From contig NC_089321.1 in the NCBI RefSeq assembly GCF_036669915.1, forward strand, positions 3,083,316 through 3,147,315: a stretch of DNA of 64,000 bases. The letters are read 5' to 3'. Below the pieces are notes generated by a model. It did not search any database. It had not been told where the DNA came from and saw only the letters and a program-made list of their open reading frames with translations. The stretch comes from Pocillopora verrucosa (lineage: Eukaryota > Cnidaria > Anthozoa > Scleractinia > Pocilloporidae). Position numbers and translations under genes: made by a program. The stretch's first letter is position 1. Each line of letters opens with the position of its first letter. Positions 12,573 to 51,871 of the stretch are shown here, piece by piece.

Positions 12573-14238
12573 TTATTTAAGCTTAAGAAACCTGCACATG
12601 CTCTTAATTTTGTTTGTTGTACTAATTAGAGAAAGATTTCCGTCGCAATCAGTGGCTAGACACATGGTGTTGTATTTTTTATACACAAATCGTTTCGAGT
12701 TTCCACTTCTTATCCTTATTACTGACTCTTCAAAGAGGAAACCGTCCTCAATTGGTTTTTGGCAACCACTTTCCTGTGAAAGAAGAACAAAAATACATGT
12801 CAATAAACATTAATAAACATTCAATTGATGAATACGAACAATGAGCATTAATAAGGTATGTAGACGAGTACCACCTACTTTCTCAGCTTTGCCATAAAAG
12901 GAAACTTTAGTCCACAACTTTGAAGAAATGCAGAGCAATTCGATTGTTTATGTAATTCAGAATGAGTCCACTTTAAGACTGTTTTGTTCCCCGACTGAAA
13001 CCTTTAAGTGACCTTTACATATCAATGCTAATTTTCGTGGAAAATGCAAGACTCGCGACTATTTTTGATTCTTCTAGAAGTCTGACAGAGTGACACTTAC
13101 ATTTACATTCTTTTATTTATGTCTACCATTCCCAAATTCAAGTACGAGAACAAAGATCTAAATGAGCTGTTTTCTTGAGGAGTGGCCAGAGATGTTGAGT
13201 ACTTCTGCTCACGAACAATTCTCAAAAGACTTCCTGACTCACCTCAAAAACAACATTGGTCCCGTTGACGACCTTTAAGGTATATAGGTATTGAGTTCCG
13301 TTTTCGTTTTTAGTGAATTGGATGCACTTCCTTCCTCCCACGGACTCAATTTTAATTCCTTTGATAATGGAAGAGGAAAACAAGATTATGAACGAAATAT
13401 GGCGCTAAATATTACCTTTGATTAAACGGCAACATCCTTTTGATAAATTGCGAGATCGTTTCAAACTACAACTGATATTGGTGTAACAAAAACTCGATGA
13501 AAAAAAAAAGGAGAGGATAAACATGGTAAAGTATTCAATTTGCTTTTTGAAATGGGAAATACACTAAATCAACTTTACCTTCGTGAAAATCGGTTCTTGA
13601 AGAACTAGAAAAATCAACGAACTTATTCATCTTGCCCTTAATTTACTTCTTTGTAAGATTTTTTTTTACTGGCGTCAGTCACATAGGTCAAATTTTGTCA
13701 ATTGCCGCTTCAATACTATGATTTTGAAGTTCCGTTTGCGCTCCATGTCACCAAGATTTCAGACACCTAACTTACTTGTCGTAGGGTCTGAAGTACGAGA
13801 ACCGTCACATTTTGCTACACAGTGCCGTTTTCCTGAAAACGTTGAACATTTTTCAGTATGAATCTTAATGAGGTTTCCTCCTCTGCAATTCTGTCCACGG
13901 TAAACTGAGCTTAGGCTTCGAACAGTTGATCTTGATTCGACGTTCGCCAAAAGCACCAAAAAGACGGCTAAAATCTGCAATCAAAACACTTTATATTTAA
14001 CTGGACTAAGCAAAAAGTTTTTATCGAAATGGATTTATAGCATTGATCTACAGCTTACAGGGGTGCGCTATCCAACCAGCAATCAGGAAGACCTGTGAAC
14101 TATTGGGACTTATAATGAGGTTCGTTAAAAACTATTATTTTAGAATGTGCGTGCCACAAGCTTTAAGCAAAGTCCGGTAAAGCTGTAAAAAAACATATTA
14201 AATTTGCCCATCATACCCACCGTAAGTTTTGAGTCCAT
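12573..14238 (-). CDS. Secreted beta-trefoil-like protein A (four exons, 177 aa)
   Basis: Coding exons are complement(14221..14238), (13776..13974), (13243..13358) and (12573..12773). Intron phases are 0, 1 and 0, identical to paralogues B (28069-30153) and C (49637-51871). Exon 1 holds only six residues (MDSKLT). It joins ILAVFLVLLANVESRS to form a clear signal peptide, so the first intron cuts the signal sequence. Mature features shared with B and C are C-X3-5-L-[IM]-K-I in exon 2, TSDP at its end, KCIQF and NVVFE in exon 3, and SGC, MCLA, DGNLSL and MCRF in exon 4. The alternation of hydrophobic strands and the C-terminal C-L-x(3-5)-DG-x-L-x-L signature resemble the FGF/IL-1 beta-trefoil fold. 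That is inference; I do not recognise the family. It lies inverted relative to B and C. A secreted role as ligand or lectin-like factor is possible but unproven. Confidence 0.75.
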
Positions 14239-14324
14239 CTTTTACGCACAATGGTCTACAATACTGAAGCTCCTGTGTGTTGAGGGTAACTGAGATTTGT
14301 ATTGATTCTTTTTCTTTATATCCT

Positions 14325-14330
14325 CTGTGC
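14325..14330 (-). promoter_or_regulatory. TATA box of beta-trefoil-like gene A
   Basis: GATATAAAG on the minus strand, about 90 nt upstream of the ATG. The same box and spacing occur before paralogues B and C. Confidence 0.6.
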
Positions 14331-14334
14331 GGAA

Positions 14335-15490: not shown

Positions 15491-15507
15491 TATAATATTG
15501 TATGGAT

Positions 15508-15728
15508 TTTATTTTCCCAAGAGCGAATTGTACCTTTCAACAACGACCAAGAGATCTACCGTTTCCACAGATAATCGAGTTACTAATAGGCGTTCTCTTC
15601 CAAACAAGTCTTTGCACGGACGGGCTGAGAGATTATCTTATCAGACACAAGGCCATACAAAAGCTACGGACACTGGCCAGCTTGAAGAACGAACTCGAGC
15701 TGGCATCTTACGACAATACTCAATAAGG
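15508..15728 (+). other. Exon-like open segment cut by the tandem duplication
   Basis: A pyrimidine-rich tract ending in CCCAAG precedes two overlapping open frames that run to a donor-like AATAAG|GTGTTT near 15729. One frame gives a protein-like end, LRTLASLKNELELASYDNTQ. The 3' part of this segment (from ~15669) reappears at 21594-21652, next to AAAAG|GTATTT. The duplication breakpoint therefore falls inside it. No family is recognised, and it may not be coding. Confidence 0.2.
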
Positions 15729-16794
15729 TGTTTCATTCTTCTTGTTTTCCACTTAGCTTTCCAATCAGTGAAAATCCCTCACACATAAGTGGAATTTCCA
15801 ATCCTCTTAAAATACTGAACAGCATAAATATAAGGGACTTAAAATAGTTTATGGCACGGCTCAAGGACAAGGTCTCTGTGGGTGAGTCGCTAAGAACTTC
15901 CCTTTGGGCAGAACCGGAACCGTGTGATCTCATCCCCACGCCCATGTAAAATTAAAATCTAAACAGTTTCCTTCATCAGCGACCGAACCTAGATTTCCCG
16001 TCTTTCTAAAGCGATCTTCACAAAGGATGGTTTCGACTAAACCAATTCTGGCTGGAGAACATGAACACTTGTCATACATCAACCACGCAGATGGCGTGGC
16101 GCGCTAGCGAGTCCTCTCCACTGGCACAGTTGTTAGCCTCCAAACACAAAATTGAGTGTTTCAGAGATGTCTCTGGCAAGCTTTTAACCGTAAAAGGCAC
16201 TGTGCTCTCATTTGGCAGGTGAACTGAAATTTTCGGGAATCAGCATTTCCAAAATCGTCATATACTATCGTCATAGGAAACTAATCGGAAGGAGGCGTCA
16301 AATGTAATCTTAGCGGTTGAGACAAATGGGTATTGACATATCCTTCTTTATTGTTTATAAGAGCCAATTCATTGCCATAGCTTGCAGTTTTTTTTCTTTT
16401 AATTATGTTTGTTTTTAATCGTAGACCTCTCATTAGCGGATCAGTGTAGATGAATCAAAACTTCGCGTGATGCACACTTGCCAGTGGTAGCTCATCTCTC
16501 TTGATATCCACTCCAGCTGTCTCTAGTTTATTTTTAATAATGCGAGCCTTGCTCGTGGGCTTTTTGGAAACAATCCAAAAGACGCTTGTTTTGACCTGAT
16601 AGAATCTGTTAAAGAATGAAGTGAAAAATAACGTCCTAAATCTAAGTGCAATATTAAGGGAAAAGGGCTCAGCAAGTTCAACATAAAATAAGATAGGCAT
16701 GATTAAACATTAATCAGGACACCGGTTGAGGGGGGATAGAACCCTGAGACTGAATTAAACGAAAAGGTTTTTTTTTAGCAGAATGTCAGGGGAG

Positions 16795-17000
16795 CTGTTG
16801 ATGAAGGGTCTCAATGGGGTTAACTGTTGGCCGAAAAACAGCCAAACAAATTAACCGTTAGCCGCAAACAATGGAAACATTTCAACGGTAGGTCACAAAA
16901 AAAAGTTAAGCGCAGACATTTTTCATTTAACTGTGATGGAAGAAATTAATTGTTAGCCGTAAAATAGCCAAAATTTTAACCGTTAACCGAAAAATCCATC
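16795..17000. repeat. Degenerate TTAACCGTTAGCCG minisatellite
   Basis: Short units of the type TTAACCGTTAGCCGNAAA recur about five times with variation (for example near 16819, 16850, 16950 and 16976). The corresponding part of the second duplicated block (22778-22890) keeps only about two units. Confidence 0.55.
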
Positions 17001-17759
17001 ACCCCATTGATACCCTCTCGATGTAATTTTCATGTGATCAGCTGAATTTACATCAGGAGCACTTTTGGAACTGTCGTTTAAAACAAGATTCCTGGTCTCT
17101 TGTTAATTGGGTAGTTTTCAAGAAGTATATTGTTTCTTTATGGTATGAACTGTTCACACATGTTTAAGACAAGTGCAAAAACAGCTTTTTTGTTTGTTTG
17201 TATGGGCTGAATAGGGATGGTCATAAGAACCGTTGGCAAATTTGATAATTCATCCAAGGAAATGAAATAGTATAAATTAGCTTGAATAGAAGTGGCTGAT
17301 ATCTCGAAGAATTGAATTTATATCATACTTGTTTCGTCGATCAGAAGCTGGTCGCGGCGCAAATTGTATCTGCCAAGCATTCTTTAAACAAAAAGCGAAT
17401 TTTTTTTATAGGAAACTATTATATTGAAGAAATGGAATGAAAAGATATACCTGTGTGACTCATGGGCAGTCAACTTAAACGTGATCTTTGTTTTGTATGA
17501 AATTCGCCTCTTTGCGAGTTTTCTCGTATAAACGCAAGTGAAACGTGAAAGGAAGATAAAAAAGTCTCTCCCCTTACAATTATAAAAAAATGCAATTAAA
17601 AACAAAAAGTATTTTCCAAGAAATTAGGTACCTGCATAAAACAGCCTGGTTTTTTCCAAAATTTCAACGTTCTCCAATGTAACACAGGAATCGGACATGA
17701 GAAATAATTGATCACTTTTCCTAGATATTTCCATGATCGATTCTGATCGAGGGAAAAGA

Positions 17760-18163
17760 GTATAAAATAGCATGCAATTTCTTCAGAGGTTGCTCAGAGC
17801 TTCAAATTGAAGCACATAAAAAATTTAAGCACAGGAAAACTGGAGCAAGAGCACCTTTCGGCAGCACTTTACAAATATTTAGTGTCAAAACGTCCTGTCC
17901 TCAGACGGTGATGATAAAACCGGCGCCACCTTGGCCATAACTGGGTCTCAGTGGTAGACGTAGAAATGCATTTCCTTTGGCAAAATTACAAGTAAAGTTG
18001 AGAAATTACATGATTCAAATGAGAGAGATAGCTTTACTTTGCAAAGAACTCTGTAATGCGGCAGGGAACGTGAAAGAATTTTCTGGAGAGGAAGACTATC
18101 TCGAAGGAAAGGTGTGGTTGGAATCACTCCCAGTATACCTAAGCCAGGCCTGTCAACAGAGAT
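17760..18163 (+). other. TATA-like element and short open frame, duplicated at 23640-24088
   Basis: AGTATAAAATAG near 17759-17770 is followed by an open frame from about 17941 to the TAA after QACQQR. It includes LQVKLRNYMIQMREIALLC and a hydrophilic segment. The second copy (to ~24088) stays open with two replacements and a different, slightly longer C-terminus. No family is recognised and there is no clear ATG context. It may be an exon of an unrecognised gene or chance. Confidence 0.2.
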
Positions 18164-20206
18164 AAGAAAATATGGATATCCAAGGAGAGTAATAAGTTAT
18201 GTTCCATAGGAGGGCCTCTAAACGATTTAATCATGATATATCAAACTTTGTAGCCTCCGACTGCGTCACTTACTTTCTCTTTGCATATTTGACACCCATT
18301 CTTGTGGATTATGGATGTAACTGATGACGTAATATAAAATATGCATGGCATAGGATTTGATATTTCATCACACATTTGTACAATGCTCTTAAGTTTCACT
18401 TGCCTACCTAAGATCTCTTAAAGCAAAATGAAAAAAAAAAGGGGAAAAACGGATACCCGGGGTTCCAAAATAACTCCGTAGTCCTTAAATTGTGCACAAG
18501 TGTTGTCAAATACCCAAAAGATTCAAAATTTCAAAAAAACTCCAAACAGCCTTCATAATCAGGGATTTGAGTAAATAACAAACTACACAAGATGAGGTAA
18601 GGCACTTTAATAATGACGTGCATAGATAACAATGGTCACGTTTTCATCAATTCCTCAACAAGAGGCTGAAATATCCCTCATATCTCATAACGCAAACTTG
18701 GTTCCATTTGATTTTTGTTCAAGGGTCTCTTGATAGACAAAATAGTCGAAATAGTTACTTCTTCTCTGTGAAATGAGAGAAGGTACTCTTGGAATAAGAG
18801 CTATGTAAGGGTAGCTAATGTATAATTTTCCCAATTTTCCCTTTTTTTGTCTCTGTTTTGTTTGTTCTTCTTTATTTCCACAGACACGCGTGGTGCCAAG
18901 GCTTAACAATGCTACGGATTCCAGGGAAGTTACGGGAAATTTCACTCAAATTCCTCGACCTGCTCAACGCACAAAGACCTAAAGCCAAGACAGTCGTGAT
19001 CTGTTAGCTTAAAGTTTCGGTGACAGGAATTAAAATAACTTACCAAACGATACAGATTATTCCCTGAGACGACGAGAGTCATGAAGGGCAAAAGTAATTT
19101 GATCTACGACAACGTTTTCATGATCCAGAATGTTCAGGTTTACTTCTGTAGTGCTTTTCTTAGTCCATAACTTAATGATAACATCATTCATAAATAAGGT
19201 GTCTTCCGGAAAGAGAAGATTGTTAGAGAGATAACGAAACTACTAGGATTTATTTCTGGTGCTTCAATCAGTTGATTTATGAGTAACTCTGTTGGCCCCG
19301 CTGCCAAAGGGATACTATGGTACCTTTGTGCTCTGTTTAAACCTCTATTCCAGTCAGAATATGGCAGCAATCTTTTCAGTGAGTAAATAGGGACAAAACT
19401 GCAGAAGAAGTTAGACTTATTTTCTCGGGGGCTAATGATGAATACGTATTGGCTTCGTCAACATTATAGAACGCTTCGGGTTGCCAGAAAAAATAAAACA
19501 ACAAAAACAACAGAAAACAAGATACCAACACGTTGGAAATTCGTCTTTTTCGAATGGCAAAGGCCACAATTCCGTCCCCTACCTTTAACTGTGGAAACTA
19601 CATATGTTACTAATCATAGATAAAATGAAGTTTCACGAACAAAATAGGCATGAGTGAAACTCTCGTGTTCATCGTTGCATGACCTCGCTCTACGCACCTA
19701 TGAAAATAACCTTGTACAGAAGGCCACTGTTATTTCATGAGGATTGCTTGCGCTCTCTTAAATGGTATAGTGTCCACTCTGTAAAACAATCATCATAATA
19801 TTCTCTAAGAAAACAATTGTCGTATTTGGTAAATTATACCCAGCCAGAGCTAGCCCGACTCTCATATCTTGAGAGCGCTGATCGCTCGTAAGTTTCCCCG
19901 ATTAGATGGTCCCGCTGCCTTTTCAGTAATATAGAGGGTAAAGACATTTCACCCTCAGAAAAGGAAAACAAGACTACACATAAAATATTCAGTTTAAAGC
20001 ATTTCGTTTGACTTGGTACTAACGTTTTGTATTGACGTACAAAGAAGATACCGTGAACAGATACCACACACTGTGTAGTTTATAATCAAGAGTTGCCTGT
20101 TCAAATAGGTCAGCTAACCAATGTAAAATACCATGAAAATATGATATAAGATAATGAAAAAACGTTTAGACAAAATCTCAAAAATTAAAAAAGGAAAAAA
20201 AAATAC

Positions 20207-20660
20207 TAAAGCGGTAGTGCACGAAATAGCTACAGGCTTTATTGATTAATTGTTTCAAATAAAGGAGTCCAACAAGACTACTTCGGGACCCTGGTGATCT
20301 AGTGTTAACAACTGAATTGAAAATATAAATTAGCCACCCTAAAGTATTTCAAGGCTGACGTTTCGAGCGTTAGTCCTTCGTCAGGGCGATTGGAGGAATT
20401 GTGGGTTGTGTGTGGGTTTATATGCAGAAAATTGAGCTACCCTATTGGTGGGGATATGGTGAGGAGAAAACAAGAATAAATTAGTTGAATGAAAAGCGCT
20501 CGTTGATACCGTGGGGATTAAGAGTGCCGATTTGGAAGACAAATTTTGTTCTAGTGTTTTGCAGCTTTCCGAACTGCCTAGATGAAGGGAAAGGCCGCAA
20601 ACTGCCATATACTGTTTAGAATGATTGGGGAGGTACTTCGGGACCCTGCCGCAAAGTAAG
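20207..20660 (-). mobile_element. Penelope-like retroelement 3' end (GIY-YIG tail), duplicated copy 1
   Basis: On the minus strand, 20481-20640 encodes in two frames the end of a GIY-YIG-type endonuclease domain: SSESCKTLEQ, then after a one-base shift FQIGTLNPHGINERFSFN and a stop. The non-coding tail follows (to ~20207), with a GACGTTTCGAGCG box. The arrangement is that of the C-terminus of Penelope-like elements. The reading-frame break and missing RT part mark it as dead. Confidence 0.6.
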
Positions 20661-21593
20661 ATTAAGATCAGATATGTATGAAAATTACATTAAGACTCGG
20701 AAAGACAAGAGCCTGAAACAGGTAGATAAGCAACCACTTCCTAAAATGAACCCTTCTAGATGGGTGAATATTTGTCTCGAAGAAAATAGTCGCGTGGGTT
20801 AAGTGGTTCTGGATAAAAAGGTTCATTAAAGAAACTTTGAATTTCCCCTGAAACGGTCGGAAATGTTTCATGGTTAATTGAACTTATGTGGCGTGACCGG
20901 AACTACGCGGTGTGGCATGCCGCATAATATCTGCGGCCATCACTAACTTCATTCCTGTTTCACGGACGTACCGATTACGATGTTAACGTTACAGCAATGG
21001 AATGGCTCAGGGAATCGTAAAAATATTTGTATGTGGGATACCTTTGTAAGATAAGAAACGGAGGGAAGTCTTCAAACTCCAACACACAGCGATATCCGTT
21101 TTAACTATAACTTTGCTTGTCTTCCTTGTTTACGGCGCCATTCCGGGAAACACTTGGCCACCGTCATCCCCTAATTTTAAGTTTACGGATGGCCTTTCTT
21201 TATCTTAGATGTCGATCACAACCCCAATGGGCCTTTCAGAACCATGAACGAATTCTCTCCTTGATTCTGTGACCTTTTGGTGAATCTATAGATTCACCAA
21301 AATTGCTCACTTTGTTAAATTGTTCACTTTGAATTCACATTTGAAACTTTGAACATTGCTTCACTTTTTCTTGAACTGTATGCTTTATTAGGACACCAAC
21401 TTTCTTCCGATACCACTTATGATAAGGGTGACATGGAACATTTGGACGTTGAAAAGCACTTGTTACCTGTGGTTTATTTGTCTTTTGATTTCAACCGAAA
21501 TCGATCAAAAATTGCAACGCACTGAAATACAGAAACATAATTTTCTCGCATAATTTTGTAATTCCTTTGCTACAACCCTGTTGATTAAATCAG

Positions 21594-24500
21594 ACACTGG
21601 CCAGCTTGAAGAACGAACTCGAGCTTGCATCTTACGACAATACTCAAAAAGGTATTTCCTTGTTCCTGTTTTCCACTTAGCTTTCCAATCAGTGAAAATC
21701 ACTCACACAGAAGTGGAAGTTCCAATCCTCATGAAATACTGAACAGCATAAATATAGCAGCCCGCTTGTTTAATAGGGACTTAAAATAGTTTATGGCACG
21801 GCTCAAGGACAAGGTCTCTGTGGGTGAGTCGCTAAGAACTTCCCTTTGGGCAGAACCGGAACCGTGTGATCTCATCCCCACGCCCATGTAAAATTAAAAT
21901 CTAAACAGTTTCCTTCATCAGCGACCGAACCTAGATTTCCCGTCTTTCTAAAGCGATCTTCAAAAAGGATAGTTTCGACTAAACCAATTCTGGCTGGAGA
22001 ACATGAACGCTTGTCATACATCAAACATGCAGATGGCGTGGCGCGCTAGCGAGTCCTCTCCACTGGCACAGTTGTTAGCCTCCAAACACAAAATCGAGAG
22101 TTTCAGAGATGTCTCGGGCAAGCTTTTAGCCATAAAAGGCACTGTGCTCTCATTTGGCAAGTGAACTGAAATTTTCGGGAATCAGCACTTCCAAAATCGT
22201 CATATACGGATGCAACGTAGGAAAAATGTTTGAAAGGAAACTAATCGGAAGGAGGCTTTGTCAAATGTAATCTTAGCGGTTGAGACAAATGGGTATTGAC
22301 ATATCCTTCTTTATTGTTTATAAGAGCCAATTCATTGTCATAGCTTGTAGTTTTTTTTCTTTTAATTATGTTTGTTTTCCATCGTAGACCTCTCATTAGC
22401 GGATCAGTGCAGATGGTTTAAAACTTCGCGTGATGCTTACTTGCCAGTAGTAACTTATCTCTCTTGATATCCGCTCCAGCTGTTTCTAGTTTATTTTTAA
22501 TAATGCGAGCCTTGCTTGGGAACATCGTGGGCTTTTTGGAAACAATCCAAAAGACGCTTGTTTTGACCTGATAGAATCTGTTAAAGAGTGAAGTGAAAAA
22601 TAACGTCCTAAATCTAAGTGCAATATCTTAGGGGTAAGGGCTCCGCAAGTTCAACATAAAATAAGATAGGCATGATTAAACATAATTCAGGACGCCGGTT
22701 GAGGGGGTATAAAACTCTGAGACTGAATTAAACGAAAAGGTTTTTTAGGCTGGGCCCAGAAAAAGCACAAAGGGTCTCTAGGTCATAAAAAAAGTTAAGC
22801 GCAGACATTTTTCATTTAGCTGTGATTGAAGAAATCAATTGTTAGCCGTAAAATAGCCAATTTTAACCGTTAACCGAAAAATCCATCACCCCATTGATAC
22901 CCTCTCGATGTAATTTTCATGTGATCAGCTGAATTTACATCGGGAGCACTTTTGGAACTGTCTTTTAAAACAAGATTCCTTGTCTCTTGTTAATTGGGTA
23001 GTTTTCAAGAAGTATATTGTTTCTTTATGGTATGAATTGTTCACATGTTTAAAACAAGTGCAAAAACAGCTTTTTTGTTTGTTTGTCTGGGCTGAATAGA
23101 GATGGTCATAAGAACTGTTGGCAAATTTGATAATTCATCCAAGGAATTGAAATAGTTAAATTAGCTTGAACAGAAGTGGCTGATGTCTCGAATAATTGAA
23201 TACATATCATATTTGTTTCGTCGATTTATCAGAAGCTGGTCGCGGCGCAAATTGTATCTGCCAAGCATTCTTTAAACAAAAAGCGAATTTTTTTTATAGG
23301 AAACTATTATATTGAAGAAATGGAATGAAAAGATATACCTGTGTGACTCATGGGCAGTCAACTTAGTAATGTTTGTTTTGTATGAAATTCGCCTCTTTGA
23401 GAGTTTTCTCATATAAACGCAAGTAAAATGTGAAAGGAAGATAAAAAAGTCTCTCCCCTTACAATTATAAAAAAAAATTGCAATTAAAAACAAAAAGTAT
23501 TTTACAAGAAATTAGGTACCTGCATAAAACAGCCTGGTTTTTTTCCAAAACTTCAACGTTCTCCAATGTAACACAGGAGGATATGAGAAATAATTGATCA
23601 CTTTTCCTAGATATTTCCATGATCGATTCTGATCGAGGGAAAAGAGTATAAAATAGCATGCAATTTCTTCAGAGGTTGCTCAGAGCTTCAAATTGAAGCA
23701 CATAAAAAATTTAAGCACAGGAAAACTGGAGCAAGAGCACCTTTCGGCAGCACTTTACAAATATTTAGTGTCACAACGTCCTGTCCTCAGACGGTGATTT
23801 TAAAACCGGCGCCCAGGTGATATTCATCTTGACCATAACTGGGTCTCAGTGGCAGACGTAGAAATGCATTTCCTTTGGCGAAATTACAAGTAAAGTTGAG
23901 AAACTACATGATTCAAATGAGAGAGATAGCTTTACTTTGCAAAGAACTCTGTAATGCGGCAGGGAACGTGAAAGAACTTTCTGGAGAGGAAGACTATCTC
24001 GAAGGAAAGGTGTGGTTGCAATCACTCCCAGTATACCTGAGCCAGGCCTGTCTAGAGAGAAAGGAAAGTATCGATATCCAAGGAGAATAATAAGTTATGT
24101 TCCATGAAAGGGCCTCTTAACGATTTAATCATGATATATCAAACTTTGTAGCCTCCGACTGCGTCACTTACTTTCTCTTTGTATATTTGACACCCATTCT
24201 TGTGGATTATGGATGTAACTGATGACGTAATATAAAATATGCATGGCTTAGGATTGGATTTTTCATCACACACTTGTACAATGCTCTTAAGTTTCACTTG
24301 CCTACGTAAGATCTCTTAAAGCAAAATGAAAAAAAAAGAGGAAAAAGCGGATACCGGGGGTTCCGAAATAACTCCGTAGTCCTTAAGTTGTGCACAAGTG
24401 TTGTCAAATACCCAAAAGATTCAAAATTTCAAAAATTCCAACCAGCCTTCATAATCAGGGATTTGAGTAAATAAGAAACTACACAAGATAAGGTAATGCA

Positions 24501-27500
24501 CTTTAATAATGACGTGCATAGATAACAATGGTCACGTTTTCATCAGTTCCTCGACAAGAGGCTGAAATATCCCCCATATCTCAGATCGCAAACTTAGTTC
24601 CATTTGATTTTTTTTCAAGGGTCTCTTGATAGACGAAAGAGTCGGAATAATTATTTCTTTTCTGTGAAATAAGAGAAGGTACCCTTGGAATAAGAGCTAT
24701 GTAAGGGTAGCTAATGTATAATTTTCCCAATTTTCCCTTTTTTTGCCTCTGTTTTGTTTGTTCTTCTTTATTTCCATAGACACGCATGGTGCCAAGGCTT
24801 AACAATGCTACGGATTTCAGGGGAGTTACGGGAAATTTCACTTAAATTCCTCGACCTGCTCAACGCACAAAGACCTAAAGCCAAGACAGTCGTGATCTGT
24901 TAGCTTAAAGTTTCGGTGACAGGAATTAAAATAACTTACCAAACGATACAGATTATTCCCTGAGACGATGAGTCACGTAGGGCAAAAGTAATTTGATCTA
25001 CGACAATGTTTTCATGATCCAGAATGTTCAGGTTTACTTCTGTAGTGCTTTTCTTAGTCCATAACTTAATGATAACATCATTTATAAATAAGGTGTCTTC
25101 TGGAAAGAAAAGATTGTGAGAGAGATAATGAAACTACTAGGATTTATTTCTGGTGCTTCAATGAGTTGATTTATGAGTAACTCTGTTGGCCCCGCTGCCA
25201 AAGGGATACTATGGCACCTTTGTGCTCTGTGTAAACCTCGATTCCAGTTAGAATGTGGCAGCAATTTTTTCAGTGAGTAAATAGGGACAAAACTGCAGAA
25301 GAAGTTAGACTAATTTTCTCGGGGGCTAATGATAAATACGTATTGGCTTCGTCAAAATTATATAAGGCCTTCAGGTTGCCAGAAAAAATAAAACAACAAA
25401 AACAACAGAAAACAAGATACCAACACGTTGGAAATTTGGTTTTTTCGAATGGCAAAGGCCTCAATTCCGTCCCCTACCTTTAACTGTGGAAACTACATAT
25501 GTTACTAATCATAGATAAAATGAAGTTTCACGAACAAAATAGGCATGATTGAAACTCTCGTGTTCATCGTTGCCTGACCTCGCTCTACGCACCCATGAAA
25601 ATAACCTTGTACAGAAGGCCACTGTTATTTCATGAGGATTGCTTGCGCTCTCTTTAATGGTATAGTGTCCACTTTGTAAAACAATCATCATAATATTCTC
25701 TCAGAAAACAACTGTCGTATTTGGTAAGTTATACCCAGCCAGAGCTAGCCAATGCCCAACTCTCATATCTTGAGAGCGCTGATCGCTCGTAAGTTTCCCC
25801 GATTAGATGGTTCCGCTGCCTTTTCATTAATATGGAGGGTAAAGACATTTCACCCTTAGAAAAGGAAAGCAAGACGACACATAAAATATTCAGTTTAAAG
25901 CATTTTGTTTGACTTGGTACTAACGTTTTGTATTGACATACAAAGAAGATACTGTGAACAGATAACACACAATGTGTAGTTTATAATCAAAAGTAGCCGG
26001 TTCAAAAAGGTCAGCTAACCAATGTAAAATACCATGAAAACATGAGTAATATAAGATAGTGAAAAAACATTGAGAGAAAATCTCAAAAATTAAAAAAGGA
26101 AAAAAAAATAGTAAAGCGGTAGTGCACGAAATAACTACAGGCTTTATTGATTAATTGTTTCAAATAAAGGAGTTCAACAAGACTACTTCGGGACCCTGGT
26201 AATCTAGTGTTAATTACTGAATTGAAAATGTTAGCCACCCTGAAGAGTTCCAAGGCTGACGTTTCGAGCGTTAGTCCTTCGTCAGGGCGATTGGAGGAAT
26301 TGTGGGTTGTGTGTGGGTTTATATGCAGAAAATGGAGCTACCCTTTTGGTGGGGTATGGTGACGAGAAAAAAAGAATAAATTAGTTGAATGAAAAGCACT
26401 AGTTGATACCGTGGGGATTAAGAGTGCCGATTTGGAAGATAAATTTTGTTCTAGTGTTTTGCAGCTCTCCGAGCTGCTAAGATGAAGGGAAAGGCCGCAA
26501 ACTGCCATATGCTGTTTAGAATGATTAGGGAGGTACTTCGGGACCCTGCCGCAAAGTAAGATTAAGATCAGATATGTATGAAACAACATTGAGAGTCGGA
26601 AAATAAACAAGCAGGTAGATAAGCAACCACTTTCTAAAATGAAACCTTCTAGATGGATGAATATTTGTCTCGAAGAAAGTAGTTGCGTGGGTTAAGTGGT
26701 TCTGGATAAAAAGGTTCATTAAAGAAACTTTGAATTTCCCCTGAAACGGGCGGAAATGTTTCACGGTTAATTGAACTTATGTGGCGTGACCGGAACTACG
26801 CGGTGTGGCATGCCGCATAGTATCTGCGGCCATCACTAACTTCATTCCTGTTTCACGGACGTACCGATTACGATGTTAACGTTACAGCAATGGAATGGCT
26901 CAGGGAATCGTAAAAATATTTGTATGTGGGGTACCTTTGTAAGACAAGAAACGGGGGGAAGTCTTCAAACTCCAACATACAGCGATATCCGTTTTAACTA
27001 TAACTTTGCTTTTCTTCCTTGTTTACGGCGCCATTCCGGGAAACACTTGGCCACCGTCATCCCCTAATTTTAAGTTTACGGATGGCCTGTCTTTATCTTA
27101 GATGTCGATCACAACCCCAATGGGCCTTTCAGAACCATGAACGAATTCTCTCCTTGATTCTGTGACCTTTTGGTGAATCTATAGATTCACCAAAATTGCT
27201 CACTTTGTTAAATTGTTCACTTTGAATTCACATTTGAAACTTTGAACATTGCTTCTTCTTTACACTTTTTCTTCAACTGTATGCTTTATTAGGACACCAA
27301 CGTTCTTCCGATACCACTTATGATAAGGGGGACATGGAACGTTTGGACGTTGAAAAGCACCTGTTACCTGCGGTTTATTTGTCTTTTGACTTCAACCGCA
27401 ATCGATCGAAAATTACAACGCACTGAAATACAGAAAAATAGCCTTTCAAATTTCCCTTCTCCTCGCATAATTTTATAATTCCTTTACTACAACCCTGTTG

Positions 27501-27502
27501 AG
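21594..27502. repeat. Tandem segmental duplication, copy 2 (~5.9 kb)
   Basis: Direct repeat of 15669-21586, with a short junction (TTAAATCA) between copies. It keeps about 30 bp near 21757-21777 that copy 1 has lost. It has lost about 110 bp of the CCGTTAGCC minisatellite near 22750-22790, and has gained a short insertion near 27437-27465. Confidence 0.9.
26113..26545 (-). mobile_element. Penelope-like retroelement 3' end, duplicated copy 2
   Basis: Same remnant as at 20207-20660, carried along in the second copy of the 5.9-kb block. The GIY-YIG tail and stop are at 26391 and above, and the GACGTTTCGAGCG box is near 26261. Confidence 0.6.
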
Positions 27503-27504
27503 TT

Positions 27505-38800: not shown

Positions 38801-39034
38801 AACAATGATCACGTTCCCTTGGCAAGCAGTAAGAAGTACAAAATAGTAGTGAAACACACACACAGCAAATGCAAGCAGGAATTTATCCTGAATATTTTTA
38901 ACGTCACTAAGGTTGATGAAGGGAATTACAGCTGCCAGTGGAAGTGTGAGTATGAGGACACTACGAAAGCATCAATTGTCTTGAAAGTTTCTACTCGGTC
39001 AACAACAGGTAAATATAAATATGTTCATCACTGA
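35888..39034 (+). CDS. Secreted or surface protein with three Ig-like domains
   Basis: Coding exons are 35888..35975, 37205..37480, 37850..38197 and 38673..39008 (or to 39034), all joined by phase-1 introns, as is typical of Ig-domain exons. Exon 1 encodes an N-terminal stretch and a hydrophobic signal core (VSLLLVLSFTLFQ); the ATG for M13 may be the real start. Exon 2 is a Cys-rich divergent Ig-like domain with KYICQC (C69-C113) and three extra cysteines (C39, C45, C51). Exon 3 is a clear Ig domain: C146, W159 in NWYKD, EGFYTC at C215. Exon 4 is another: C263, W278 in HWYK, DEGNYSC at C325, plus C272, C304 and C329. Read through the last donor-like site, the frame stops at 39034, giving 357 residues. 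Alternatively GGTAAATA is a donor and a membrane exon follows, but I could not find one. Adhesion, receptor or immune-type roles are possible for such proteins. Confidence 0.72.
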
Positions 39035-39039
39035 GTTCA

Positions 39040-42000
39040 GAGTGATGAGTTATAGGAAAAAGCCTCTGCAGCAGGCGCTATTAGCAGTCAAAGTATTATG
39101 TACGGAGTTTTGAAGGTGCAGAAAGACGCGCTTATTGAAAGGATCTCATACTTGAACCAGAATGTCATTTTGTCGGGATGTTATTCAAACATTAGTTGAG
39201 AAATTAATTACAGCAACTGTTAATAGTTTTATCATATTTACTCTGAGAACATCAAGTTCTCCAAACGTACATTTATTTCAGAAGTATTATAGCACCAAAA
39301 TTGGAAAGCTTACGACAGAGCGACCTTTTCTTTTTTTATCTCTCATCCATCCACTAATTCAAGGGTATCATTTTTCTTGCTATCTGGAGGCAATATTCTT
39401 GGAAATGTCCTCGTCATTAACTTTTTATAATGTACAGTTGATATCAAATTAAAGCATGAGATCTTGCACTTTTTCATGCTTAGTTCTCTTTCTATTCATA
39501 GGAGACATTTCTTCTTGGTGAGGGTCAGGAATAACACAGCAGGAGTTAGTCGACAACCAAGAATAAAACGAAATGGCGAATTTTAATTGCGATCAAAAGC
39601 TTCAGCCTTTTTTTTTCTATCTATAGTAAGCTCAGTGGATTTGAGAGTTCGAAAAATATCGAGCTGAATTAGCAGCAAAGCAAGCTTTCAGGCAGAATTA
39701 AAAGTTTTCGGTTCACTTCTGGTTAAGGAGTTGCAATTACTGACTTCACGTTTATTGCTAATTAACTGAAATATTTAAAAAGTATGAAGAAATTCCCAAA
39801 TTTGAAGGTCAAGTTGGTACCCCTGAGGTTCAGGCTTGCTGTAAAAGACTTGAACACATGACTCTGAGTCCCTTTATCGGCGCCGTAACTCTCCCTGGCC
39901 AACTAATCCATCGAGCCATTTAAAAATTGGCAAAAGTCTGATTCTTTATAACTGAGAGGGATGAATATGTGGAAAGGAATATGTGATAATCTTATATTTC
40001 AGTGCTGGAATAAAGTTGGCTAATCAGTTAAGGAGGGGAATTGCGTGGCGGTCATGCAATCGCATTCCGTTTAAGCCTGGTTATTTTTAGGCGTTGTGAG
40101 TAAAAGTAATTTTACTTGATAGAATCTTTTCTGAGGTTTTAAGAAGCAAAAAAAATTATTCAATGGCTTCTTCCCGCCCGCGTCAAGGTTACGGAGATCG
40201 CCTAGCTCTCATTAATTAATGACGGTTCGAGCCTCCACACGATAAAAAAAATAGATTCCATGTTGTTGAGTCTGCTCAGTGGTCGATCAAAGAAAAATTT
40301 CAGTTGGTACGTAAAAGCCTAAGTGTTACTACATTTTGTCGTCTGTGATCCGTAACTGCAGAGACGCACGGAAACTTGGGACGTATTTGTTAAGTAGAGA
40401 GCGAGTACTCGTTGAGCTCGCCTAGAGCCGAGCATAATTAGAGCCAAAATATGTCTGAGTCTTTATCTGCGGTTGAGTAGCCATTCAAAGCATAAGAGGC
40501 TTTTCTTTGAGTTATTTCAGTTATGGCTCTCCACTACTTAAAGCGACACTATCATCCCGAGAAAACCACTTCCTTACGATCACATAACTTTAATTTTTTC
40601 ATGATTAAAAATCTCATCATTTTCTACAACACAATGTCTCAAAGATGCAAATGATTATACATACAACAAGCAAACATGCTGCACGTGGCGACGCTTCCTG
40701 TTTAAATGTTCACATCGCCATAACCATGCTTAGCCATATTTAGAGGCCATCGATGGGGTCAATCGCGAACCATCAATGAAGTGAGCCAACAGTTGTCCAA
40801 CCTCTCGATGATTCAGATTAAGAAGTAAAAAGGAAGCTTAGCCCGGCTTTAATGTGAGCCAAATAAATTTTTGTTCGGACCCTTTTATATACCTCAATGA
40901 AACTTTGGACAGAAATTAGTTTCTTTCGGAGACACTTCCGCTGTCGTAAAATGTTACCTGTAAATCAAGGAGAGTGTCATTCGGTAAATCGCCGACCACT
41001 TCATCGTAACCGGTCGCTCAGCTGAACTTCAGAGTAAAAGGCTTGATTCTGCTCTATAAAACAGGTAAATACGAAGGAACTTGAAACTGAGTTCTGAAAG
41101 TTCATTTACAGCTTGACGCTCACATAAACAAACGCAGGATTTCCGTCCTCATTGTGGGTTGCGATCACTGATAAGTTCCAATTTAAATTGATTACGGAAA
41201 AGAAATGAACTAATGCTCCAAAAATTTTCCTCAGGCGGATTAATATCACTACCGTGGTAACCTCACGTGTTGAACGTGCAACGATTTCATTGCAAAGGGG
41301 AAATGGGTTGGCCAGTGTTTACGTAGAGAGTATATAATAATATGTGTAGTTTGATTAGTATTATGCTGGCAGTATGAGGCGTTTGCAATCTAGAATTACA
41401 TGAAATGTGCATCTCCTGAGCTGAAACTGAAGCATTACAAGGAAAGCGTCTTTTAAAAAAAACTTTTGAGTGAGTTACAATAACATCTTCAACGAAACAT
41501 TTTATTGAGGCAAAATTTTTCATACCAAGAGATCGAGAGGGAATGGCTTAATCCAAACTTACTACAACAAAGTAAACGGCTTGTTGACATGTACAGCTAC
41601 GGCTTTAGCCTCGTATAATAACAGAACAAATTAAAATAAAAAGAGAGCTCAGTAACATACTATAAACCGACAGAAAATCTCCCTTCAGGCTTCGTATTAT
41701 AACGCAGTTAGTGAAAGCTTGCTATTAGCAAAAGTATTTGAATACGGTGTATATTCTCTCAAATCATAATGCTCAAATGTAGTCATAGTGAAGGAATCTA
41801 CATTTTTGTCCATCATTCAAACTCATTCCAGACAAGGTACCATTAGGGTATTTACCTAGACAACTCGCTTTTTGCGAATATATGAAATATCCAGAGCTTC
41901 TGGCTTCTGTTAAAATGAACCCTTCAGGAATGATTTTATGACAGGCATTTTGCTGCTATAAATACAAACACAAATGATAGTGAATGAAGAGAAGGGATAT

Positions 42001-42905
42001 TTCATTCAATCTCTTAAAAAAACGTTCCGTTTTTATAACAACAACAACAGTAGCTATCGAACGTGATATTGACCCCTCATTTGAAACACTCAGCATCAAA
42101 ATGAAAAAGATGTTCCTCAAGAGTATGCCTTAATCTCCATGAAAATTGATCAATCATAGTAGCGGAGACAATAAATATTTTTGAATTGACTATTTTAACT
42201 ATACAGTATAGAAAGGAATTGGCTTTTTTGAATGGACCACTTGCTCATCGTAGAACACCAATGACATAGACAGTGCTCCTACAATTATTAAAATGTCTGG
42301 GTAAATCAAAATTAACATTAAAATTTATGGAATTAAATCAATATAACAGATGCATGAAATAGGACAGTGTGCAGACTCGTAAATGAGAGAATGAACAAAT
42401 GCATGGCGACAAAAAAAAATTAGTCAGTTAACCTTATCAAAATCCCATAGCTTCCTTTTATATGTCAGAGTCAGGTTACTCAATAATCACTCGCCTCACA
42501 AATGATGTTATAGTCGTAGTGTCGACTTTAGCCCATATTCAACTCGGCTGGCTGTAGTGAATTCATTGCACTTTCCAGTTTTTTTGGCTGTTTTATTGAT
42601 GTTAATGACTCCATTAAAAAAAAGCATTGGACGAAATGAAATAAAGACTTTATGATGAATAATCCTTCTGCCGTTAAAAGTAGAAATACCGTCTCTGGTA
42701 TGTTGGATATGGATCTATTAGTCTGGCGTTGTAGGAGCAATCTTTTTCACAACTTGATCAACTTACTGAATGACACTGATTGTACTGACACTGGCTTAGT
42801 CTTTCCAACGAGGAAAATTTCCACAGCAACAAAGTTCATCAAGCTTGAGTTTATTTATCTAGTGGTGTTCTGTATCAGTAAAGTTTAACCAGCCTTTATT
42901 CACTC
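39040..42905. other. Gene-poor stretch downstream of the Ig-domain gene
   Basis: No transmembrane exon or other coding segment could be joined to the Ig gene with confidence. No repeat family is recognised here. Confidence 0.35.
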
Positions 42906-42910
42906 GCTTA

Positions 42911-43065
42911 TTTACGTTATCAACTCAGTTGATAACGTAAATTAGCCATCGTAAAGAGTCTAAAAGTTGACTTTCTAGTGTTTTGTCGTTCGACTGGACG
43001 AAGGGCTAACGCTCGAAATGTCACTCGAACTCTCTACGGTGGCCAATTTACGTTATCAACTCCGT
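42911..43065. mobile_element. Inverted pair of Penelope-like element ends
   Basis: 42911-42941 is a near-perfect palindrome (two 15-bp arms, TTTACGTTATCAACT and its complement, one base apart). The segment to ~42986 resembles the tail of the Penelope-like copies on the minus strand. From ~42990 to 43065 the same tail follows in the plus direction (CGAAGGGCTAACGCTCGAAA, GTGGCCAATTTACGTTATCA). The two arms face each other. No coding part remains. Confidence 0.5.
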
Positions 43066-43069
43066 TGAT

Positions 43070-46000
43070 ACCACTAACTTACCCTGCTATACCCTCTCAC
43101 CGATACAGCATCACAGTTTCTCTAGAAACTTACATCCTTTTTTCACTTTACTCACTCGTTGTTGGATCTGTCTTCCATTTCTCATTTAATCGAACGTCAC
43201 ATTTCTTACCGCCGGATACACAAGTCTGAATCTTTATTAGACATCCAGAAGTTGTAATATTAAACTGGTCCTGAAAAAAATCTTAACAATTTTCAAACAT
43301 CGTAAGAATGAGAGATAAAACGTCTTTACAAACATTCCAGAATAAAAAAAATTGCTACTTGAATTCGGGCAGGGTAATTACGACAGAAGTCTTTTGAGTT
43401 GATTGACCACCTTGTCGACAGGGTGGCTGAGGAAGTTTTGCGTCGGAAATAAACGTCCTCACTCGGTGGAAAAAACCAAGTTAATGCACGACCACGTTAG
43501 CGAGGTTACTGAGCAAGCAGTTTGCCTTGAGTGGATGCGATGCATTGACTTCCTTCTCCACCACCCTGTAACCCGTATCACGCATTATTACGTGACTTTA
43601 ACAAGAAATAAACCCAGAGGGCCAAAACATAAAATCCTATTCGCCGACAAATATTTTATTTATCATTCATGATCAGTTAACTAAAGCCAGGCTGATTTAA
43701 GAGCTTTTGAGACTAATATTGGGTCGAATAAAGTATACCAAATCATAATCACGTGAGAAGTGAAATGAACAGGTAGACCACAAATGACCATTAAAACAAG
43801 ATGGAGAAATTCATCGATGTAATAACAAGAAAAGAAAGAGCCAAACGTCTTTGTAAAGGATCACTTCTAAAGCGGGGAAGTGATTGTTGCTATAAACAAA
43901 TTATTCCTCATTCAAACTAAGCATCTGAGTTATGTAAAATCAAGAAAATGGAAGAAATCATTAAATCGTTTGGTAGGCGCAGGCTGAAGATATTGCATAA
44001 GATCATAGTACTCTTTTAGCTACTTACAAGCAAGATTTTTCGGCACACCATTGTGTGTTCACCAGCCTGTTTGATCTTTCTCGGGATTCTCCTTGAAAAT
44101 AATTCACCCATACACCTTATTTATACCATGTACAAGTGGCTCTGGTTTTCAGAGACTTTGCCCATTACGGAAACCCCATAGCCAAGCATGTGTTAGCCAA
44201 TAGGATGCACAAGAAGAATGAAAGGAATAGAGATTCTTTCAACAAAAGATACGTTTTTACTCAGTTGTTTAGTTAAATATATGCATGATGCATTATCACA
44301 AAAATGAACAAGTGACCTGTTGCCGGTTTACCCACGCTATAAAGAAAGATATGCTGGGAAGTATCTCTGCCTAGGGACAGGTTGTAACGTATCATTTTCA
44401 TGACTTGTATTGATACACTTATTCGACTAAAAATAACGATTTGTTGATTATCATCTAAGACGAGGAGGAAGTTGTAGAAATGTTCAGGTACAGCCGGGAT
44501 TTTAAACGTTTTAGACAGCTTGACAAAATGAACGTCTCAAGCATAACTGAGCTTTAATGAGCAAAGATTACGCTTGTCTTCATTCAATAGTGATGAATTT
44601 TCGTGCGCTCGTATGCCTTTCTAGCTACTTTGTTCCTAGGGAAAGCTTATTTGATGTATTAAAAGCTGATGGAAAAATGAAAAACGCCCAGATCTATTCA
44701 TTTTTACGAGTGAATGCGTAGCATTTATGAGTATAAGAGGTGTGTGGGGGAAAAAAGCGCTTGGTCGATTCCTGTGAACTTTTTTTCTTTGTTGAGCCGC
44801 TTACCAGTGGAAAAAAAACCAAAGCGCGGAGTATCGCGGGCTCAAATTAGTGTACATCGTGCGAGCGCCGAAGTCGTGTTTGAACTGGAAGTAAGTCGAT
44901 TCCCTTGAGGAATGGCTTTTTTTTTTTGGCTATAGCTTTTATTCTTGGTTCTTCTTGGATGTATCGACGTTCGACAGTTTTGTATTCATAATGTATTCTG
45001 CTGACGTAAGTGAACCACCCGTTCCGCCGAATATAGCAAGATGCATTCCACTCAAAGGTCACGGCGAAGGTTTACTAAATTTACGCCAAGATTTTTTAAG
45101 GATTATATGGAAAAAGGCAAAGATTCACACTGAAGATCTTCGGCGTAAATGGTTCAGAATGTAGCCTGGCGAATATACTGGCATCGTTTGTTTTGAAGTA
45201 AGAGTCTTTCATGATAGACGGTAAATTTCACTTCCTACCCACATTTACTTCCGACCTTTTCTTTTGAACCAGAATTAAAAATGATATATGTTTAAAACAC
45301 ATGACATCATCCACCCTTGCCAAATGTGATAGCATGATCATTTCAATTGTGATGCCTTCTCATCCCAACGTTACTTTGTTTCTATGCTACGTTAGCGAAC
45401 ACTGAACTACTGCTCGTACTCTAAATATGACAATCAACCACAAAATTCCCTAAACCAGATAACATTAAATATAATCCAAAAATCATGTAAGTCATCTGTC
45501 AATTCACGAGTTTGCTCACAAAGCACTTTGATTAAGTTTTGAGTTCCCGTTCGAGTTGCGATTCCGTTCCCTAGGAAGTGAAGGTTTAAGATGTAAGGTA
45601 AATTTTATTTTCCAATTAGACTTAAACGGCCAGTCTACGTGTGAATCAAAGGCTGTTTTTATCGCTTTCAAGCTCCATCACAGGCTTTATTATTCGAGCG
45701 AAACTGAGCTGAATTCCAAAAGAAGTATTAGACGTGCCGGCACGTATGCCGTGTCTTACCGAGTTCATACCTCCACATACAAGCGGCTTACATCTTTGTG
45801 GGTGGAATTTTCAACTAGCCATCACTCCCACGCCGGTTCATTTCACTAGCCAACGTAATTGAACCGTGAGCCATTTAAAGAATTGGTGTCCCCTTTTTCT
45901 AAAGCTTGCAAGTTCTATCATACATGCATCTCCAAACTACTAATGCTGGGGTTCAAAGTCCCTTTGTGTATTCACATGCAGTCTCAATTCAGTTTCTCTT

Positions 46001-46740: not shown

Positions 46741-46745
46741 TTTAG

Positions 46746-46913
46746 ATTGATATATATCAAGAGGGAGATGAAACTTCTTATTAGCGGATTGAGTAATGCA
46801 AGTAGCCTCTTAAGTATTTAGCGCCAAAGATTGATATATATCAAGAGGGAGATGAAACCTCCTATTAGCGGAGTGAGTAATGCAGGTAGCGTCTTTTTGC
46901 AAGTATTTTAGCA
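46746..46913 (+). repeat. Tandem direct repeat of ~84 bp, two copies
   Basis: ATTGATATATATCAAGAGGG begins both copies (46746 and 46830), and each ends in AGCGCCAAAG or AGCACCAAAG. The second copy has a few substitutions and a short insertion. Confidence 0.8.
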
Positions 46914-46914
46914 C

Positions 46915-49540: not shown

Positions 49541-49543
49541 AGG

Positions 49544-49550
49544 TATAAAA
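49544..49550 (+). promoter_or_regulatory. TATA box of beta-trefoil-like gene C
   Basis: GGTATAAAAGAGG, 93 nt upstream of the ATG at 49637, matching the layout of paralogues A and B. Confidence 0.65.
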
Positions 49551-49636
49551 GAGGTGGCAGATGGCATATGGCAGACGAACTCACATATACACTTGTTCAA
49601 AGCTGACTGAAATTGAAAGAAAAGAAACCAGAGATC

Positions 49637-51871
49637 ATGGAGTTGAAAAAGATGTTTCCAGTAAGTATATAGTCATTGTCAGTCCTTGCTTGTACATCGA
49701 ATGTTCCTTTTCAGGTTAGGGTAATTTCACATATCAAACATATTTGATTTAGTTTGATAGATTCTATGGTTTAAATGTTTCAGCCAGATAGGTTCTTCAA
49801 ATGAATCGCCACAAATATCCTGCGATATTATACGGTTACTTGGACAGTTGTTTACTTTGTACTGTAAAAAAATACCTTTTTAACCATAATGATTCGGCTG
49901 CGCGCGCTACTCTTCTCTAACTTATTTGCTTTTCCCGCCCCTATGAGAAATGAGCAGAAAGACTTAGCACAAAACAAAGCAGTTGGATGATAAGTAACTT
50001 ATTAGACGTTTTGGTATGTTGTATCGCTGAGTATAGCTAGTTTTGGCGTGTGGTATCAGCGATAATACACCAAAACGTCTAATAGGATATATGTACTCTG
50101 TATGTGTTTCAGTTACATGCTCATTCTGTGTCACTTAAAGGTTAATGTATTGAAATTGTTTTGATAATGGTAAAGTTCTTATGAAATTGTGACAATATGT
50201 CTCGCTATCTTGAATGTCTGGTTAAATTCATCTGAAATCACTTAGATTTTTCTTTTCAATTCTTGACACGCTGAACGAGGGTTGTTAACGAATTTGAAGA
50301 ATATTTCCTTAGTACATCAGACCCTCCAGATACCTTATCTTTCTTGAATAATTAAAAAAATAAAATAAAAGAAAAACGGAAAAAAAGTTCAAAACACGAC
50401 AAAATAACAAGATAGAAGAAAACATGCAAAAAAAAAAATGAAAACTAATAGAATAAAAAGTTTCTCTTTTGTGTTGATGAAACATCATAGTGTTTTTATT
50501 TTACTTTTTCATTAGATTGTCGTTGTGTGCCTGGTAGTTCTCGTGGACTTCAGCGAGTCAAACGAACGTAAAAATAAAACCCTTAAATCAGCGATATGCG
50601 ACGCTCTTACAACTAAAGCATGTCTGATGAAGATTCAGAGGTGTTCAACAAGTCAGAGGAAATGTCAGGTTAGAGTTAATGGTACAACGACCACAGATCC
50701 AGCAGCGAGTGAGTAAACTTTGATGAAAATTTTATTTTATTATAAAAGTGTACATGAATTCTTTACACTCGTCCCTGTTTTTATCTTTCGACTTGAAATA
50801 GACTAGGATGGGATTTGTAAAACTGATGGTTATGAATATGTGATGACACAAGCACACATTTTGATGAGAAGTGCTTTCTTTAAAAAGTGACTTAATGAAA
50901 AATGAAAAATGATGGGAATAAATGCTGATGGCTAAAGTACCTCATACCATTAAAATGACGATTTCCAAATCATCGTCTAAGGGTGGTATGTAATCAGCTT
51001 TCATTGGCCTGCTTTTCGTGTCCATCAGATCAAAGCGAAAGAGACTTAGAATGCCTGATCCTAACATTGAACTTGACATAGAATGTGAAATGATACAAAG
51101 GAGAGAAGGCCACAAAGAGAAAGGAGTATCACTTAGCTATAACGTAGGCGATATCATGAATAAGACGTCGATTTGACAGACCTAGACACTAGTTGTATCT
51201 AACTAAAGTCATGAGTGCAAGGAGATACCTTTTGAAAAACGATAGCTCACAAGGGTAATTATTTTTTTTTGTAGGATTTACCATTGTTAGGGTTTATAAG
51301 TCAACCCCAAACATTACAAAGTGCATTGAAGTCACTTCACCCAGCCATGTTAAATATGCAATGAAGGTTGACTCCATAAACAGCATCATTTTTGAGGTGA
51401 GCAGATCGCAAAACAATATCAGAAATATAATCATCGTGGTCGATAAAAGATGTAACGAAGGAGTTGTACACTCTTTCATGCCTTTACTTAACAATGAACA
51501 ACAGTACTTCAATTCATATCCTCATACACTCAGTGAAACAGTAGTTACCTCTTATCGCTCCTTTCCTAGAGAAATGGACTTAAACTGCTTTGCATTTTTT
51601 ATCATTGGCCTTAAATTGGAAAAGATCTTCCCTAATTAATTTTACGTTTTTATTACATTCACAGGAACAGCAGAATGGCTGCAATAACAAAACTGCTGAT
51701 GCCTTTATTTTTACTGAAGCTCGTGACAGTGATTCTGGCTATTTTACATATACACACAATTCAAGGTGCTTAGGCACAAACATTGATGGCACTTTGTCCT
51801 TGATGACTATTAGTGATGCAAATACAAAAAAATGTAGCTTTAAACACATTAAGTGGCCTCTCCTACGCTGA
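49637..51871 (+). CDS. Secreted beta-trefoil-like protein C (four exons, 181 aa)
   Basis: Coding exons are 49637..49660, 50516..50708, 51275..51396 and 51665..51871, with intron phases 0, 1, 0. Exon 1 (MELKKMFP) plus IVVVCLVVLVDFSES forms a strong signal peptide. The mature part has nine cysteines: SAIC, KAC, QRC, RKC in exon 2, TKC in exon 3, and NGC, SRCLG and KKC in exon 4 account for eight, and the remaining one lies in the signal region. Family blocks are CLMKI, TTTDPAA, RFTIVRV, KCIEV, SIIFE, EQQNGC, YTHNSRCLG, DGTLSL and CSFKHIKW. The end (F-I-F-x-E...Y-x-T...C-L-G-x(3)-DG-x-L) resembles the last two thirds of an FGF/IL-1 beta-trefoil. It shares most with B in sequence and strand. The family is not recognised, and the role as a secreted factor is inferred. 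Confidence 0.76.
50000..50084. repeat. Foldback inverted repeat in intron 1 of gene C
   Basis: Arms of about 30 nt (TATTAGACGTTTTGG... at 50000-50030 and its near-complement at 50056-50084) are separated by a 25-nt loop. It would form a strong hairpin in DNA or pre-mRNA. It may be a tiny foldback element or a MITE relic. Confidence 0.75.

Follow-up and report, generated by a model that had tools for sequence, protein, structure and literature searches.

A divergent family of putative secreted proteins, candidate FGF/IL-1-type ligands, encoded close to Ig-domain and TIR receptor genes in the coral Pocillopora verrucosa

We analyzed a 64,000-nucleotide stretch of the Pocillopora verrucosa genome (hereafter the window; contig C10, positions 3,083,316-3,147,315) together with searches over the whole 353-Mb assembly of 52 contigs. 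The window contains three related genes, here called A, B, and C, which are predicted to encode small secreted proteins. Their exons lie at the following positions of the window:

14221-14238, minus strand: gene A exon 1, encoding MDSKLT, with TATAWA at -82
13776-13974, minus strand: gene A exon 2, encoding the leader and the first third of the protein from the N-terminus
13243-13358, minus strand: gene A exon 3, flanked by phase-1 and phase-0 introns
12573-12773, minus strand: gene A exon 4, including the stop
28069-28092, plus strand: gene B exon 1, with TATAWA at -83
28470-28662, plus strand: gene B exon 2
29376-29500, plus strand: gene B exon 3
29953-30153, plus strand: gene B exon 4, including the stop
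49637-49660, plus strand: gene C exon 1, with TATAWA at -93
50516-50708, plus strand: gene C exon 2
51275-51396, plus strand: gene C exon 3
51665-51871, plus strand: gene C exon 4, including the stop

Models rebuilt from the sequence give each gene four exons and GT-AG introns of phases 0, 1, and 0, with products of 177 (A), 180 (B), and 181 (C) amino acids that each begin with a hydrophobic leader. These models agree with an earlier sequence-only reading of the window, which had described A, B, and C as four-exon paralogues of 177-181 residues with these intron phases, a leader, and cysteine motifs; its count of eight shared introns needs correcting, since the three genes hold nine. The joining of the exons is a prediction based on conservation and splice sites. 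Relative to C, the products of B and A are 44% and 31% identical, respectively, and the alignment of the three proteins has 38 invariant columns, among them the cysteine blocks and a DG-x-L-x-L turn; KCI, GC, and CL motifs are present in the proteins. Paralogy of the three genes is well beyond chance, and a profile built from them matches further exons in the same window (E 2e-12 and 1e-6). A TATAWA motif precedes the start codon at the distances listed above and, in a fourth copy (D), by 74 bases (4/4), compared with its occurrence within -100..-65 of 635 of 20,000 random places. Intron 2 of gene B (28936-29321) carries a roughly 300-base repeat, which is found in at least 39 other places in the genome at 85-91% identity.

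Two further copies, both absent from the sequence-only reading, lie in the window:

41776-44051, minus strand: copy D
44028-44051, minus strand: copy D exon 1, with a TATA box (TATAWA at -74)
about 43156-43270, minus strand: copy D exon 2, without the leader stretch
about 42.5-42.6 kb, minus strand: copy D exon 3, frame broken
41776-41955, minus strand: copy D exon 4, open
54838-55494, minus strand: relic E, comprising remnants of exon 3 (about 54838-54944) and of exon 2 (55309-55494, interrupted by stops)

When the hidden Markov model (HMM) profile of A, B, and C was searched against the six frames of the window, the pieces of copy D, which were read separately with no frame mended, gave independent E-values of 2e-12, 1.2e-6, and 0.0021. 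Copy D is probably a pseudogene. Matches to relic E were weak (tblastn E 0.17 and 0.039; HMM E 0.055).

Searches with single proteins found further members to the right of the window on C10 (F, G, H, J, and K, to about 3.188 Mb), one gene (I) on C3, and about six grouped together at 15.72-15.78 Mb of C6; there is an additional, unread copy on C10 near 3.181 Mb. These copies, with those in the window, bear out the earlier proposal that the family has spread by local duplication. Weak matches on C8, C10:11.3 Mb, and C11 were rejected as members, being an unrelated noncoding repeat, and one weak match lay on C9 (E 4.2). No relative was found in collections of viral contigs and genome contigs, which are not meant to hold other cnidarian genomes. 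Eleven open copies were read, namely A, B, and C in full and F, G, H, I, J, K, M, and N over exons 2-4. Introns 2 and 3 have the same phases in all 11, although the exon-4 acceptor of gene H is weak. Among nine genes, the ratio of nonsynonymous to synonymous substitution (dN/dS) was 0.15-0.56 in 15 of 36 pairs, with dS saturated in the remaining 21. Taken together, these data indicate a family that is old, constrained, and still duplicating, with a fast-evolving cluster on C10.

The family carries no Pfam or NCBIfam name and its members have leaders, in line with the earlier description of an unnamed secreted family, and no description of it was found in the titles and abstract openings of the open-licence papers that literature searches listed. 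Scans of four of the 11 members against NCBIfam gave nothing over the cut-off, and a profile search of the PDB by sequence returned chance matches only.

The gene layout invites comparison with the FGF genes of the same genome. The FGF model matched 69 exons, 41 of them over the Pfam cut-off, and none of the matches listed falls within the A/B/C cluster. These matches reveal a large FGF gene expansion, located on C1 (16.6-16.8 Mb), C5 (9.3-9.7 Mb), C9 (17.26 Mb), C10 (19.8 Mb), and C14. Both intron donors were readable in five of 12 fetched FGF loci (L061, L063, L064, L065, and L067); in all five, a phase-1 intron 1 follows stretches like SPLG, CPYG, and SPHG, and a phase-0 intron 2 follows stretches like GNLYTT. 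The A/B/C family has a phase-1 intron after stretches such as TTDPAT and a phase-0 intron after FE, and its introns 2 and 3 correspond in phase and domain position to FGF introns 1 and 2. Like FGFs, then, the family members are putatively secreted and encode their core in three exons separated by a phase-1 and then a phase-0 intron, and the middle exon is of comparable size (104-125 nucleotides in the 11 family copies vs. about 34-37 residues in FGFs). The proteins differ from FGFs in having more cysteines. FGFs carry a basic heparin-binding glycine box, which is not visible by eye in exon 4 of the 11 members.

The last exon of the family resembles the last exons of this genome's FGFs. We compared exon 4 with 23 FGF last exons (E < 1e-3 to the FGF model and under 80% alike), obtaining a mean z of 1.67, with 22 of the 23 beating their own reversals, against a mean z of -0.25 for 15 unrelated proteins (8/15 beating reversals). 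Similarity was lower to ten vertebrate FGFs (mean z 0.57, only 7/10) and to seven IL-1s (0.42, 6/7). Whole profiles compared without anchoring (40 permutations each) gave mean z values, as row averages, of about 1.95 for eight FGFs of this genome and 0.32 for the ten vertebrate FGFs; the mean was 1.04 for all 18 FGFs, 0.48 for the seven IL-1s, and 0.09 for 13 non-trefoil proteins, among which avidin and one Ig domain were outliers at 1.65 and 1.73.

In an intron-anchored test, each family exon was globally aligned to its FGF counterpart and scored against 500 column permutations. The score against FGF was reached by none of the permutations with eight members and by one with 11; that against IL-1 was reached by one. 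Exact residue positions of the IL-1 introns, and the IL-1 exon cuts used in the anchored and last-exon comparisons, are our assumption. Across 12 combinations of members and targets, 0 to 13 of 500 permutations reached the score, and the true exon order scored best of six. The same procedure applied to IL-1 vs. FGF as a positive control gave 3/500. The signal is confined to exons 2 and 4. Against a rotation null with 18 FGFs, exon 2 held (0/52 rotations reach the score), and when 11 members were set against this genome's FGFs, the counts were 9/54 for exon 2 and 1/63 for exon 4. A first exon-by-exon test was set aside as its free-end alignments proved to be offset overlaps; in its local variant, exon 2 favored FGF exon 1 (0/150 permutations) and exon 4 favored the wrong FGF exon (exon 2, 0/150; exon 3, 17/150).

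Most IL-1s lack a signal peptide, unlike the A/B/C family. One secreted relative, the chicken IL-1RN, resembles the family in that a signal peptide is predicted for it and its mature chain has 156 amino acids, according to the excerpted account in PMC4090809. As far as the excerpt of PMC4880838 goes, the final introns of IL-1beta genes have phases 1, 1, and 0, with 12 strands in the last three exons (the figure legend says four); the last two introns of IL-1 genes thus share phases 1 and 0 with the A/B/C family. The IL-1 C-terminal signature (PMC7144542) was not found by eye in exon 4, with gene A agreeing at its F, L, A, and T places only (F-x(9)-L-A-T).

A further likeness to the IL-1 system is that genes for three-Ig TIR receptors lie close to the A/B/C cluster. 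Between gene B and copy D is a gene with three Ig exons:

37205-37480, plus strand: exon for Ig 1, phase 1-1, with no Pfam Ig match alone but conserved in paralogues
37850-38197, plus strand: exon for Ig 2, phase 1-1, Ig_3 E 2.5e-6 at 28.3 of 30 bits (under the cut-off)
38673-39008, plus strand: exon for Ig 3, phase 1-1, Ig_3 E 3e-8

The third Ig domain is 55% identical to that of a TIR-bearing receptor (tblastn E 1e-34). Its exon is under constraint; compared with the paralogue at 4.64 Mb, the proportions of nonsynonymous (pN) and synonymous (pS) differences are 0.32 and 0.78, respectively, with dS saturated. We did not find the first exon or the 3' end of this gene. No TIR exon was found in the window, so the gene may encode a secreted ectodomain; a role as a secreted decoy is possible. 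At E <= 0.01, four paralogues of the gene were found, every one of them on C10. In three (4.64, 16.61, and 16.68 Mb), both a TIR domain and a membrane span are present. The fourth, at 16.67 Mb (C10:16,670,421-16,672,084, L081), has a stop near the end of its third Ig exon and no TIR domain within the 3.5 kb fetched beside it. The idea that every Ig paralogue carries a TIR domain was consequently rejected, none being found beside this copy or in the window.

A genome-wide search for TIR domains returned 54 matches, one of them at C10:3,206,748. This match belongs to a gene (C10:3,202,948-3,207,224), located about 15 kb past gene K, that encodes a membrane-spanning TIR protein with a hydrophobic leader and three Ig domains. 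The search also revealed TIR gene arrays on C1 (14.3-14.9 Mb), C4 (10.9-11.2 Mb), C8 (8.9-9.0 Mb), and C13 (4.57-4.74 Mb), several of the genes with identical scores. In a sequence comparison with the PDB, adhesion proteins came closest to the three-Ig ectodomain, whose 10 matches include FGF receptor 2 (E 0.006) and no IL-1 receptor, and Toll-like receptors came closest to the TIR domain; given these nearest matches, we use the label IL-1R-like on the strength of domain layout. The gene at C10:3.203-3.207 Mb and the three other TIR-bearing genes resemble the cnidarian NvIL-1R1-3, as these appear in the excerpted text of PMC1896004, in combining Ig and TIR domains with a membrane span. Genes of this kind are candidate receptors and not ligands, and the three-Ig gene of the window differs from NvIL-1R1-3 in showing no TIR domain there.

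Six ectodomain genes of this type were seen on C10, and two of them lie either inside the 92-kb cluster of family genes or no more than 20 kb away from it. By simple arithmetic, independent placement on C10 would give that linkage about 6 times in 10,000, a figure that is not a p-value because the interval was chosen post hoc and the sixth gene was read for its location, and that is qualified further by the facts that distant Ig-TIR genes would be missed and that the genes are partly tandem copies. The linkage of putative ligand and receptor genes is suggestive.

The window also holds three short collagen genes on the minus strand (629-1096, 5308-6297, and 9101-9511), with proline-rich, cysteine-bearing ends and matches to Pfam Collagen at E 5e-16 to 6e-29; we take their layout to be minicollagen-like, a mark of a cnidarian genome. 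Elsewhere in the window is a tandem duplication of about 5.9 kb (15669-21539 and 21593-27440), 93-100% identical in the blocks listed, with only one stop-to-stop frame of at least 110 amino acids among those listed (26338-26691, minus strand).

A series of results weighs against the view that the family consists of beta-trefoil ligands for such receptors. The 10 members scanned against Pfam (all but H) matched neither FGF (PF00167) nor IL-1 (PF00340), and a genome search with PF00340 gave no IL-1 match, though the controls gave no match anywhere either. Hhalign comparisons with 3, 8, 9, or 11 members stayed at noise level throughout; those with 11 gave 1.7% for FGF and 0.3% for IL-1, compared to 42% in the IL-1 vs. 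FGF control and 100% in a control of FGF vs. this genome's FGFs. The family therefore lies below Pfam and hhalign detection, in which it differs from FGFs, and lacks the PF00340 match that marks the IL-1 family. An internal threefold repeat is not evident (21/100 permutations reach the score, vs. 0/100 for FGF and 11/100 for IL-1). The permutation null of the anchored test is lenient, given that a Kunitz trefoil control with arbitrary cuts reached 6/500 and likewise had its true order as the best of six. Exon 3 contributes no signal, whether in the anchored test (204/500) or against 16 FGF middle exons, and it beats its reversal in 19 of 23 comparisons with FGF last exons, which is the wrong pairing. 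Exon 2, compared individually with six FGF first exons, gave no signal, and the rotation null with 18 FGFs weakened exon 4 (16/63 reach the score; 15/63 with 11 members). With regard to the receptors, C10 carries other TIR genes, such that the linkage may be due to chance, and none of the 54 TIR matches lies on the chromosome that holds the C6 group.

These findings leave the FGF/IL-1 trefoil proposed in the sequence-only reading partly supported. Intron phases and places, the anchored score, and the last-exon similarity to FGF agree with it; the Pfam and hhalign profiles, the threefold repeat, exon 3, and the leniency of the null do not. Membership of the named FGF or IL-1 family fails the sequence tests of those families. 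The family nevertheless likely belongs to the wider FGF/IL-1 stock, judging from intron positions and sequence comparison. We put at about even the chance that A, B, and C are cnidarian secreted signaling proteins, specifically very divergent FGF/IL-1-type beta-trefoil ligands, possibly for IL-1R-like receptors. The more specific proposal that they are ligands of cnidarian IL-1R-like receptors, with ligand, receptor, and soluble decoy encoded within about 110 kb, is tentative and by itself improbable.

The foremost alternative, which we nonetheless judge unlikely, is that A, B, and C form a family of secreted, cysteine-rich proteins with a different fold, such as defense, lectin-like, or matrix/nematocyst proteins, and that the FGF-like strand pattern and intron phases are coincidental. 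The negative hhalign and symmetry tests would be expected if so, and the lenient anchored test, the conserved cysteines, and the presence of three minicollagen-like genes in the same window all fit; what this alternative leaves unexplained is a last-exon similarity specific to FGF, with flat negative controls, and introns that match those of FGF in both phase and place. It is rather doubtful that A, B, and C are divergent members of the genome's FGF expansion, with FGF receptors as their targets, with the IL-1R-like neighbors being coincidental. This genome's own, numerous FGFs are indeed the nearest statistical resemblance and share identical internal intron phases; yet the FGF model that matches 41 exons elsewhere matches no scanned member, the glycine box is not visible in the last exon, and the linked receptors are of the TIR type, FGF receptors not having been mapped. 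That the gene models are artefacts or dead copies, as the broken D and E might suggest, is very improbable in view of the 11 copies that keep exons 2-4 open and share one splice architecture, the dN/dS values well below 1 where measurable, and the TATA boxes in place in A, B, and C.

If A, B, and C are FGF/IL-1-type ligands, the following mechanism may be envisaged. Each gene has a short leader exon followed by three exons for about 155 residues, and the leader would direct the product to export by the classical route. Most likely, the compact, cysteine-rich domain would then bind an Ig-domain receptor on a neighboring cell. IL-1R-like receptors, which span the membrane once and join three Ig domains to a TIR domain, would be the first candidates, given that a three-Ig gene lies inside the cluster and a complete receptor gene beside it; FGF receptors would be second. 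The three-Ig protein of the window could serve as a decoy, and changes in copy number together with divergence might tune the ligand, as in immune ligands.

According to the available text of PMC9020223, IL-1 genes occur in vertebrates only, whereas IL-1R-like receptors are found in Cnidaria and other invertebrates, and IL-1 ligands have been traced to the earliest vertebrates in the excerpted text of PMC12108812. In the part of PMC5861070 consulted, FGF and IL-1 are treated as related in structure rather than in function, with convergence as a possible origin of the likeness. A secreted family with FGF/IL-1-type gene architecture beside IL-1R-like receptors provides a concrete, testable ligand candidate, and one that could bridge FGF and IL-1. 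If the proposed pairing is true, an IL-1-type ligand and its receptor would have been paired before the cnidarian-bilaterian split, rather than the ligand first arising in vertebrates.

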